This document shows positions 14,465 to 18,895 of a stretch of DNA of 35,477 nucleotides, in pieces (within the stretch, counting starts at the first letter, position 1; each line of letters starts with the position of its first letter). The position numbers and the translations under genes were made by a program. Below the pieces are notes generated by a model, which saw only the letters and a list, made by a program, of their open reading frames with translations, had not been told where the DNA came from and made no database searches. Source of the DNA: Nitrospirota bacterium (lineage in GTDB: Bacteria; Nitrospirota; Nitrospiria; Nitrospirales; UBA8639); the NCBI GenBank assembly GCA_003695915.1, contig RFGF01000114.1:1-35477 (forward strand), given 5' to 3'.

Positions 14465-14920
14465 ATGTCTGAATCGGGCCTTCCTATTGGCGATCTCCAC
14501 ACGGTTCTGCCCCATCGGTTTCCGTTTCTTTTGGTCGATCGCATCACCGAACTCGAGAAAGGTCGTCGCATCAAAGGCTACAAGAACGTAACCGTCAACG
14601 AACCGTTTTTTCAGGGGCATTTCCCTGGGCGGCCGGTCATGCCCGGTGTGTTGATTCTCGAGGTGATGGCCCAAATCGGAGGGGTGCTGGCCATTAAAAC
14701 GGGAACGGGAACCGGTCGGCCGGTCGTCTATTTAACCGGCATCGACAAGGCCAAGTTTCGCAAACCCGTGGTACCGGGGGATCGATTGCAGGTCGAAATC
14801 GAGGTGGTTCGGCACAAGCCACCGTTTTGGAAAATGGAAGGAAAAGCCTCAGTCGATTCGGTCCTCGTCTGCGAAGCGGAAATGATGGCCATGGTCACGG
14901 AGGACTCATCGCCTGCGTGA
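14465..14920 (+). CDS. fabZ: 3-hydroxyacyl-ACP dehydratase FabZ
   Basis: This 151-residue hot-dog-fold enzyme removes water from 3-hydroxyacyl-ACP in type II fatty acid synthesis and competes with LpxA for hydroxyacyl-ACP. Active-site His52 and Glu66 lie in [21 protein letters not shown] (residues 50-70), and the substrate-tunnel motif [12 protein letters not shown] is at 15-26. A strong ribosome site (AAGGAGG, 14454-14460) precedes the ATG. Its place between skp and lpxA is the standard envelope cluster order except for the missing lpxD. Confidence 0.97.
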
Positions 14921-14987: not shown

Positions 14988-15797
14988 GTGAATATCCATC
15001 CGACAGCATTGGTGCATCCGAAAGCTGAAATCGAAGAGGATGTCGTGATCGGCCCATATTGTGTCATTGGCGAACACGTGAAAATCGGGCGCGGGTCGCG
15101 GCTCATTTCCCATGTCTATATCGAAGGGCATACGGAGATCGGCCAACGATGCCAAATTTTTCCGTATGTGTCGATCGGGACGCCACCCCAGCATTTGCAA
15201 TATCGTGACGAGCCGACCCGCGTGATCCTGGGCGATGACAATATCGTTCGTGAATACGTGACGATTAATCGGGCGACGTCGTTCGGAGGAGGCATCACGC
15301 GACTGGGGCATCATAATTTTTTGATGGCCTATGTCCATATCGCGCATGATTGTGAATTGGGGAACCATGTGGTCATGGCCAATGCGGCGACGCTGGCTGG
15401 GCATATCACCATCGGCAATTATGCCGTGATCGGCGGCTTGGTAGGGGTCCATCAATATGTCCGAATCGGGGATTATGCGATGATCGGCGGATGCTCGGCT
15501 CTCGGTCGAGATGTCCCGCCGTTCATGCGGGCTGCCGGAGGTTATCGGGCAAAGCTCTTCGGCTTGAACTCCATTGCCTTGCGCCGGCATGGATTTTCCA
15601 ATGAACGCATCGCTATCTTACGACAGGCCTACGATCTGTTGTTCCGTCAAGGCTATCGGTTGAACGAAGCGACGAAACTGGCCCGCTCGCAATATTCCGA
15701 CAGCACCGACGTGTTGATGTTGTTGACGTTTATTGAAAGCTCGCGGCGAGGTTTGTGCCACGCCTCATCGAGGGATTTGGATGACGAAGAACTCTGA
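14988..15797 (+). CDS. lpxA: UDP-sugar O/N-acyltransferase LpxA
   Basis: This 269-residue cytoplasmic trimer starts lipid A synthesis by moving a 3-hydroxyacyl group from ACP to the 3-position of the UDP-sugar. The left-handed beta-helix hexapeptide repeats fill the N-terminal two-thirds, and the catalytic His120 is in HIAHDC (His125 in E. coli). GTG at 14988 is the start. One odd point is the E. coli QDLKY segment, whose Asp74 contacts the sugar 3-OH, which reads QHLQY here (His69, Gln71). That change, together with the GnnA-like gene nearby, suggests that the acceptor could be the 3-amino sugar. The last 17 bases overlap lpxI. Confidence 0.96.
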   Translation: MNIHPTALVHPKAEIEEDVVIGPYCVIGEHVKIGRGSRLISHVYIEGHTEIGQRCQIFPYVSIGTPPQHLQYRDEPTRVILGDDNIVREYVTINRATSFGGGITRLGHHNFLMAYVHIAHDCELGNHVVMANAATLAGHITIGNYAVIGGLVGVHQYVRIGDYAMIGGCSALGRDVPPFMRAAGGYRAKLFGLNSIALRRHGFSNERIAILRQAYDLLFRQGYRLNEATKLARSQYSDSTDVLMLLTFIESSRRGLCHASSRDLDDEEL

Positions 15798-16695
15798 ATC
15801 CGTACCGAACTCGTCTCACGCTCGTCCGCTCGAACCGCACGAGCCGATTGTCGGGCCGATTGGGCTCATTGCCGGGAGTGGCCGATTCCCGATTATCTTT
15901 GCCGAAAATGTGCGGCGTATGGGTTATGCGGTTTCCGCCATTGCGCATATCGGCGAAACGGACGAGGCCCTGGCCCACTATGTCGATCGCATTCATTGGA
16001 TTCGCATCGGCCAATTTACCAAAGCGCTCAATGCCCTCAAAGGCGACGGTGTTTCCCAGGCGGTGATGCTCGGGGGCATCAAAAAAACCCACGTGTTTAC
16101 CACCGTGCGCCCGGATCTTCGAGCGATCATGTTGTTTCGGCGGTTGAAAAATTGGAAAGATGACGGCATCTTGCGGGCCGTGGCTGACGAACTCGAACGG
16201 GAAGGCATCCGGATTCGAGAATCGACGTTCGGACTCCACAGCATTTTGGTCGATGAAGGGGTGTTGACGAAGCGGACGCCGTCGTCCAAAGAGTGGCAGG
16301 ACATCGAATTCGGGTGGGAGATCGCTGGCGAAATCGGCAGGTTGGATATTGGCCAATGCGTGGTCATTAAGGAACGGGTGGTCGTGGCTGTGGAAGCCGC
16401 GGAAGGAACCGACGAAGCCATCCGTCGGGGTGGGAGTTTGGCTCGATCGGGCGCCGTAGTGGTGAAACGGTGTAAACCGCATCAAGACCTGCGATTTGAT
16501 TTGCCGGCCATTGGACCCCAGACGATCGACACGATGCGCGCGGTGCAGGCGACCGTCTTGGCCGTCGAGGCTGGTCGAACGGTCATGATCGATCGCCAAG
16601 ATCTGCTGCAACGTGCGAACGATGCTCGGATTGCCATTGTGGGAGTCGCCACTCCTACCCCTGATGCTGGTCGTTCTTCGTCGCACGTGACGTGA
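15781..16695 (+). CDS. lpxI: UDP-2,3-diacylglucosamine pyrophosphatase LpxI
   Basis: A 304-residue DUF1009-family protein. LpxI cleaves UDP-2,3-diacylglucosamine to lipid X and UMP, replacing the LpxH of enterobacteria. The family N-terminus GPIGLIAGSGRFPIIFAEN, the MLGGIKKTHVF segment and the C-terminal block (GTDEAIRRGG, then KPHQDLRFDLPAIGPQTI) are all present. ATG at 15781 overlaps the end of lpxA by 17 nt, and the upstream GAGGG serves as ribosome site. The gene fills the lpxH step in this otherwise complete cluster. Confidence 0.93.
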   Translation: MTKNSESVPNSSHARPLEPHEPIVGPIGLIAGSGRFPIIFAENVRRMGYAVSAIAHIGETDEALAHYVDRIHWIRIGQFTKALNALKGDGVSQAVMLGGIKKTHVFTTVRPDLRAIMLFRRLKNWKDDGILRAVADELEREGIRIRESTFGLHSILVDEGVLTKRTPSSKEWQDIEFGWEIAGEIGRLDIGQCVVIKERVVVAVEAAEGTDEAIRRGGSLARSGAVVVKRCKPHQDLRFDLPAIGPQTIDTMRAVQATVLAVEAGRTVMIDRQDLLQRANDARIAIVGVATPTPDAGRSSSHVT

Positions 16696-16766
16696 GCGAG
16701 CACGTCAGTGGCCGCGGGAGTCCATTGGTCCATTCGAATCCGTCAACGAGGCGTTCAGGAAAACGC

Positions 16767-17759
16767 ATGAGGCCCCTTGCCGTGGCGGTCATTGGTGTTG
16801 GGCACCTGGGCCAGCATCATGCTCGAATCTACTCCACGCTGCCCGGTGTCCATCTGGCCGCGGTAGTCGATACTAACCCTGCTCGTGCGGCATGGGTCGC
16901 AGAACGCTATGGCGGGCAACCGGTCACGGACTTTGCCGCCGTCCTCTCGCACGTCGACGCCGTGAGTGTCGCCGTGCCGACATCGGTGCATTATCCCATA
17001 ACAAAAGCTTGCTTGGAGGCGGGGCTCCATGTTTTGGTGGAAAAACCCATTGCTTCGACGGTCGATCAGGCCGAAGAACTCGTCGCGCTGGCTGCCCGTA
17101 TGCAACGGGTACTTCACGTCGGGCATATCGAGCGGTTCAATCCGATCATCGAAAAAATTCGTCCCTATGTGACCGAGCCTCGCTTTATCGAATGTCATCG
17201 ATTGAGCCCCTTCCAGCCCCGCGGTACGGATGTGGATGTGGTGCGGGATTTGATGATTCATGATTTGGATATGATATTGTCTTTTCGGCCCGGGCCGTTA
17301 CGAGATCTTCGCGCCGTCGGCCTGACGGTGCTCTCCTCCCATCTCGATATCGTGAATACCAGAATGGAATTTGCCAGCGGATGTGTGGCGAATCTCACGG
17401 CATCTCGCGTGTCGACTGGGCGGCTGCGGAAACTGCGAGTCTTTCAATCCGCCAGTTATTGCACGGTGGATTATCAGACGCGTGATGCCGTGATCCAGCA
17501 ACGAATGGGGGAGTCGAGCAATGGGGCGATCTCTTCCGTTGTGACACACCATTTGCGCGGAACGAACGAGGAACCGCTGAGTCGTGAATTGAGCGCATTC
17601 ATTGAGGCGATCCGCGGAAAATCCGCTCTAGGGGTATCCGGTGAGGAGGCCGTCGCGGCGCTCAAACTTGCGCAGCAGGTGCTCGATGCGATTGCGAGCG
17701 GTCCGGCTGCCGATGCGTCGTCTTCTCGATGGCCGTCCTGTCCATCGCCCGGGCTGTGA
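16767..17759 (+). CDS. Gfo/Idh/MocA oxidoreductase, GnnA-like
   Basis: This 330-residue NAD(P)-dependent sugar dehydrogenase has the Rossmann motif AVIGVGHLGQHHA (7-19), the EKP signature with Lys93 (VEKPIAST), GHIERFNP (119-126) and the catalytic-site segment DLMIHDLDMI with His165. In Acidithiobacillus and Leptospira, a protein of this family (GnnA) oxidises the 3-OH of UDP-GlcNAc so that GnnB can add an amino group, making the precursor of amide-rich lipid A. Location inside the lpx operon favours that role, but no GnnB is in the window. ATG 16767 (AGGA upstream) fits the family start; GTG 16692 overlapping the lpxI stop would add 25 residues. Sure of family, moderate on role. Confidence 0.9.
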   Translation: MRPLAVAVIGVGHLGQHHARIYSTLPGVHLAAVVDTNPARAAWVAERYGGQPVTDFAAVLSHVDAVSVAVPTSVHYPITKACLEAGLHVLVEKPIASTVDQAEELVALAARMQRVLHVGHIERFNPIIEKIRPYVTEPRFIECHRLSPFQPRGTDVDVVRDLMIHDLDMILSFRPGPLRDLRAVGLTVLSSHLDIVNTRMEFASGCVANLTASRVSTGRLRKLRVFQSASYCTVDYQTRDAVIQQRMGESSNGAISSVVTHHLRGTNEEPLSRELSAFIEAIRGKSALGVSGEEAVAALKLAQQVLDAIASGPAADASSSRWPSCPSPGL

Positions 17760-17767
17760 GCGAGCGT

Positions 17768-18895
17768 ATGCGACGGATCTTCATCGTCACAGGCGAAGCC
17801 TCTGGCGACCTTCATGGTGCCAACCTGGCGAAAGCGCTGTTTGCGCTGCGGCCCTCGCTTTCCCTCATTGGCGTGGGCGGAAGCAAAATGGCCGAGGCCG
17901 GGGTTCAATTGCTGCCAGGGATTGATCGGGTAGATGCGATCGGTGTGCCGGGTTTCGCGCAACTGTGGAGAGGGGTGCGAACCCTTTCCCGGCTGAAGCG
18001 ATTTCTGCGCATGACCCCATTGGACGCCGTGGTCTTTATCGATAGTCCGGGAATGAACCTGCGCTTAGCCAAGACGGCGGCCAAAATGGGACATCGCGTC
18101 GTGTATTATATTGCGCCTCAGGTCTGGGCCTGGGGTGCGAGGCGACTCGAGGTCATCCGTCGAACCGTCGATCGTTTGCTCGTCATCCTGCCCTTTGAAG
18201 AATCATACTTTCGTGCGGCAGGGATCCCGTGTGAATTCGTTGGTCATCCCTTGCTAGACGTCATTGCGCCGTCCTATCACAAACCGGCCTTGCGCGCGCA
18301 GTTCGGGTTGTCGCCACATGGATTCGTGCTGGGCCTGCTTCCCGGCAGCAGAGTGCATGAAGTCGAACAATTTTTGCCGGTTATGCTCGATGCGGTGAAG
18401 CGGGTGCATGATCACGAGCCGTTCGAGTGTCTCCTCGCTCGGGCAGAATCCATTCCCGCGCAGCTGGTCGAAAGGATCGTGATCCAATCAGGGCTCAAGG
18501 TCAAAGTCGTGGCGAATCAGGCCAACGAGGTGATGGCAGCTTCGGACTTATTGGTGACCGCTTCGGGGACGGCCACGCTGCAGGCGGCAATTATTGGAAC
18601 ACCGATGATGATCGTGTATCGGGTATCATGGGTGACGTATCGTGTCGCCAAATTGTTGGTCAGGATCCCATATATCGGACTCGTGAATATTGTGGCTGGG
18701 CGGTTTGTGGCTCCGGAATTGATCCAGGATCAGATGACGGCGGAGCGCCTGGCAGGCGAGATACGTCAGTTGCGCGAGAATCCTCAACGGCTCGAAGCGA
18801 TGCGAGCGGATTTTCAACACATTCGGCAGGCGCTGGGTGGACCAGGGGCATCCAAGCGGGCGGCGGAACGTGTGTTGGCGGAGGCCATGCGGTGA
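17768..18895 (+). CDS. lpxB: Lipid-A-disaccharide synthase LpxB
   Basis: This 375-residue GT19 enzyme joins UDP-2,3-diacylglucosamine to lipid X, making the beta-1,6 disaccharide of lipid A at the inner face of the inner membrane. Family segments are TGEASGDLHGA (near the N-terminus), VGGSKMAEAG, FIDSPGMNLRLAK, YYIAPQVWAWG, FVGHPLLD, LGLLPGSRVHEV, ASGTATLQAA and a YRVSWVTYRVAKLL membrane-binding stretch. ATG 17768 is 8 nt after the preceding stop; an earlier in-frame ATG at 17729 overlaps that gene. The gene ends in a GTGA overlap with msbA. Confidence 0.96.
   Translation: MRRIFIVTGEASGDLHGANLAKALFALRPSLSLIGVGGSKMAEAGVQLLPGIDRVDAIGVPGFAQLWRGVRTLSRLKRFLRMTPLDAVVFIDSPGMNLRLAKTAAKMGHRVVYYIAPQVWAWGARRLEVIRRTVDRLLVILPFEESYFRAAGIPCEFVGHPLLDVIAPSYHKPALRAQFGLSPHGFVLGLLPGSRVHEVEQFLPVMLDAVKRVHDHEPFECLLARAESIPAQLVERIVIQSGLKVKVVANQANEVMAASDLLVTASGTATLQAAIIGTPMMIVYRVSWVTYRVAKLLVRIPYIGLVNIVAGRFVAPELIQDQMTAERLAGEIRQLRENPQRLEAMRADFQHIRQALGGPGASKRAAERVLAEAMR

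Follow-up and report, generated by a model that had tools for sequence, protein, structure and literature searches.

GnnA takes the first step toward a less common, amide-linked variant of the lipid A sugar in the outer membrane. The closest described system is that of Acidithiobacillus ferrooxidans, with solved GnnA structures (PDB 7bvj and 7bvk) and the gene order lpxA-gnnA-gnnB-lpxB, and gnnA-gnnB-lpxB operons are also present within the phylum Nitrospirota (e.g. at loci L054, L061 and L071). Legionella has the order gfo-lpxB, a lone gnnA before lpxB, with an orphan DegT aminotransferase elsewhere in the genome. A Gfo/Idh/MocA (Gfo) dehydrogenase and a DegT C3-aminotransferase likewise work together in the WbpB-WbpD-WbpE pathway to UDP-GlcNAc3NAcA, which acts on a uronic acid.

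Here we analyse a stretch of 35,477 nucleotides from a Nitrospirota bacterium (the window; contig RFGF01000114.1). Its lpx operon resembles that of A. ferrooxidans in the fold and motifs of the Gfo protein and in the place of its gene between lpxA and lpxB, but it has no adjoining gnnB, has lpxI between lpxA and the Gfo gene, and encodes an LpxA with His instead of Asp. The other Nitrospirota operons carry an orthologue of the Gfo gene at that position (32–46% identical); unlike the window, they include a GnnB-clade aminotransferase and, where LpxA was seen, an Asp, once a Ser.

A probable GnnA-type gene in the lpx operon

LpxA, LpxI, a Gfo protein and LpxB are encoded head to tail in one overlapping row on the plus strand, downstream of fabZ (14465–14920, plus strand), an open reading frame that is kept as a neighbor in relatives. 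LpxA (14988–15797), the UDP-GlcNAc (or UDP-GlcNAc3N) acyltransferase, matches the NCBIfam equivalog PRK05289 with 364 bits (cut-off 226) and is present in a single copy, a search of its own genome returning one match. LpxI (15733–16695), the UDP-2,3-diacylglucosamine diphosphatase, scores 141.6 bits against NF047836, below the cut-off of 400, and is kept in the operons of relatives; its true start is probably further in than 15733. LpxB (17729–18895), the lipid A disaccharide synthase, matches TIGR00215 with 275.6 bits (cut-off 190). The Gfo gene (16692–17759) lies among these lipid A genes as given in a preliminary description of this DNA, and there is no aminotransferase gene between it and lpxB in the window operon.

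The Gfo gene very probably encodes a GnnA-type enzyme. In a phmmer search against solved structures, A. ferrooxidans GnnA (7bvj) ranks first with 185.8 bits, the next match scoring 68.5, and the two proteins are 36% identical over the solved chain. The AlphaFold model of the window protein (pLDDT 91) retrieves in Foldseek five A. ferrooxidans GnnA chains as top matches (6.6e-35), followed by the next family at 3.8e-24. Furthermore, the EKP motif, with its conserved lysine, and the DLMIHDLD motif are common to both proteins, and the position before lpxB is that of gnnA in gnnA-gnnB-lpxB operons. The earlier designation of the gene as GnnA-like is thus upheld by its nearest solved relative, in sequence and in fold, by its motifs and by its place in the operon. 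Among NCBIfam models, the archaeal equivalog for UDP-GlcNAc 3-dehydrogenase scores highest, but its cut-off of 450 is missed at 194.6 bits, so the assignment rests on closeness and not on a curated threshold.

A search of plasmids returned mostly haloarchaeal Gfo proteins, 36–39% identical to that of the window, and one from Legionella. Haloarchaea are not known to make lipid A, and the presence of GnnA-like proteins there indicates that this type of enzyme also serves other nucleotide-sugar pathways.

Paired and lone gfo genes

Of the 148 genomes covered in the phylum, 138 have the Gfo gene. In 24 of 40 sampled loci it is separated from lpxB by an aminotransferase gene; the other 16 lack one and include all 14 sampled loci of the window's class; most other sampled lineages have gnnA-gnnB-lpxB at the same place. 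Both gfo-aminotransferase-lpxB and lone gfo-lpxB occur among named genomes of many phyla, the lone form often behind lpxA-lpxI, while Acidithiobacillus-like genomes have lpxA-gnnA-gnnB-lpxB with a GnnA 57–68% identical to that of A. ferrooxidans. In the Gfo tree, lone and paired forms are interspersed, with 10 changes between them, at least three of which are forced by strong branches.

Five genomes without a Gfo gene (G084, G141, G038, G120 and G007) were considered as true losses and rejected, as LpxB is absent too and LpxC is present; missing contigs are probably the cause. Real loss, with lpxB present and no Gfo gene, is found in G139 and in family f8. At the G139 locus (L178), an open reading frame of ~230 codons resembling a small kinase lies between lpxI and lpxB instead.

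Residue 69 of LpxA marks the lineage

In an ungapped alignment with an offset of 5, LpxA His69 (codon 15192–15194, plus strand) aligns with E. coli Asp74, as the preliminary description had it. According to that description, Asp74 of the E. coli enzyme contacts the 3-OH of the sugar, and the substitution had been read as fitting an N-linked acyl chain at position 3. This reading does not hold up in the comparison. His is found in every examined LpxA of the window's order, including those of G040 and G082, both without a DegT protein, and Asp occupies the site in almost every gnnA-gnnB locus of the phylum, in Geobacter, in Thioalkalivibrio, in two Legionella species and in the Acidithiobacillus-like genomes. 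The exceptions are L055, with Ser, and some Desulfobacterales-type lone-gfo loci, with Ala or Ser. Across the phylum loci, Acidithiobacillus-like genomes and Legionella compared, we found no residue at position 69 that is diagnostic of GlcN3N users. We therefore consider it highly improbable that His69 is itself a change of specificity toward UDP-GlcNAc3N, even though it is invariant within the order. Judged from these alignments, residue 69 appears to be a marker of lineage that carries no information on the acceptor.

LpxA Gly168 (15489–15491) aligns with the acyl-chain ruler residue of E. coli, Gly173, which predicts a chain of the 3-hydroxy-C14 type. Each of ten genomes of family f16 (G010, G019, G028, G035, G041, G045, G049, G053, G057 and G061) encodes two LpxA homologues, and the two could act on different acceptors.

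The genome encodes no operon-type GnnB

Counting DegT proteins at E ≤ 1e-15, we found three full-length members in the window's own genome, on contigs C34, C98 and C69. The C34 protein is a WbpE homologue that adjoins WbpB and WbpD, completing a WbpB-WbpD-WbpE set on that contig, and the C98 protein is hereafter called L002 (G000:C98:54980-56104). In three trees, the aminotransferases of the lpx operons, with the Acidithiobacillus-like ones among them, fall into a single clade with 99% support, and none of the three DegT proteins of the genome belongs to it, L002 and the WbpE homologue both being placed outside. Identities of 47–53% to the operon copies had suggested L002 as a relocated operon GnnB orthologue, a candidacy rejected by the trees and by an AU test, in which a topology that keeps the L002 type with the operon clade is 53.7 log units worse (p = 0.0101). 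Similarly, the best aminotransferase match falls in the GnnB clade in none of 23 named lone-gfo genomes.

The preliminary description had made its proposal of a diamino-sugar lipid A depend on a GnnB somewhere in the genome. A canonical GnnB is absent from the genome; what the search did yield is an unlinked aminotransferase of the sugar C3 type, L002, as a candidate substitute.

L002 as a candidate partner of the GnnA-like enzyme

Among the closest solved relatives of L002 are DesV, QdtB and WbpE, all sugar aminotransferases. Most of the window's order encodes L002-type proteins (63–70% identity), which have no Gfo- or WbpD-like neighbor in 28 of 30 loci and are the sole DegT protein of G056, G109 and G141. 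In the streamlined genome G137 (1.8 Mb, 99% complete), the single Gfo protein is that of the lpx operon and the single DegT protein is of the L002 type, and this joint survival of two orphans is the pattern that a GnnA/GnnB pair, once split, would leave.

Unlinked genes have precedents. The gnnA and gnnB genes of Mesorhizobium loti are reported to be unlinked (PMC5644692), and GlcN3N has been reported for Legionella pneumophila (PMC8036547), a species other than the Legionella read here. Among the latter, L. santicrucis combines a lone gnnA with just one DegT protein, which, unlike L002, belongs to the WbpE clade. Together these cases make an unlinked, non-canonical aminotransferase credible. 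The lpx Gfo protein of the window is in turn far from WbpB.

In the window's family, L002 adjoins genes resembling halves of a phosphonopyruvate decarboxylase (L168, G000:C98:47000-63000, and L169), and the same neighborhood contains look-alikes of a class-V aminotransferase, a nucleotidyltransferase and a CDP-alcohol phosphotransferase; these genes likely belong to an aminoethylphosphonate pathway. At six other loci (L156, L158, L159, L163, L140 and L141), a DegT gene has as its neighbor a gene for a Gfo dehydrogenase fused to a hexapeptide acetyltransferase (in L159, 533 aa), an arrangement that resembles fused WbpB and WbpD next to their partner.

From the gene identities, the operon, the clade membership and the distribution shown above, we infer a three-step route. 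The GnnA-type dehydrogenase would oxidize UDP-GlcNAc at C3; an unlinked DegT enzyme not orthologous to canonical GnnB, most likely L002 and less likely the WbpE homologue on C34, would aminate the 3-keto sugar; and LpxA would N-acylate the resulting UDP-GlcNAc3N. The lipid A backbone would then consist, at least in part, of a 2,3-diamino sugar with amide-linked chains. We give this route, with its unlinked aminotransferase, an even chance in the window organism.

The Gfo gene is kept in genomes without a DegT partner

A tree of 34 genomes shows two losses of the L002 type, one of them in a 12-member clade whose genomes all keep the Gfo gene. An L156-type aminotransferase is present in seven of these genomes and neither type in five, two of which, G040 and G082, have no DegT protein at E ≤ 1e-15. 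Outside the order, G008 likewise has a Gfo gene and no DegT protein. The Gfo motifs are intact in the genomes lacking DegT, and between G040 and G060 the Gfo gene is under the same constraint as lpxB (dN/dS 0.136 and 0.145, respectively; the LpxI value for this pair is a frame artefact and was left out). The Gfo gene is thus not strictly dependent on a DegT partner, which is the main reason why our confidence in a diamino lipid A does not exceed even odds.

These genomes bear on two other explanations of the lone gene. One is that it is the leftover of a lost GlcN3N pathway, gnnB having disappeared from the class and gnnA persisting with little or no function. The paired operons widespread in the rest of the phylum and the losses in G139 and f8 are compatible with such decay; however, almost all of the order keeps the gene, its motifs are intact and its dN/dS is 0.07–0.16, and we regard a leftover as improbable.

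The other is that the lone Gfo protein, though homologous to GnnA, has a different, DegT-independent role in lipid A synthesis, so that GlcN keeps its ester at C3. This would account for the retention of the gene, with intact motifs and ordinary constraint, in G040, G082 and G008, for the recurrence of the lone gene before lpxB across many phyla, and for the missing GnnB-clade enzyme in the 23 named genomes. On the other hand, some of the aminotransferase losses are recent, because G034, nearly identical to G040, still has one (G082 branches deeper); all lone-gfo genomes beyond these few have some DegT protein; the interspersed Gfo tree does not set lone forms apart from paired ones; and in Legionella the arrangement is lone, yet GlcN3N is reported for L. 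pneumophila. We consider such a role possible but clearly less probable than the diamino-sugar route. The broader idea that a DegT-free GnnA has an unrecognized lipid A role common to many bacteria with a lone gnnA in the lpx operon is more doubtful still.

Implications

For annotation, the residue at LpxA position 74 (E. coli numbering) should not be taken to predict the acceptor, nor should a lone gnnA be taken on its own as proof of diamino-sugar chemistry. If the diamino-sugar route with an unlinked aminotransferase is correct, the job of GnnB would have passed to a different aminotransferase subclade, and amide-linked diamino-sugar lipid A would extend across much of the phylum Nitrospirota.
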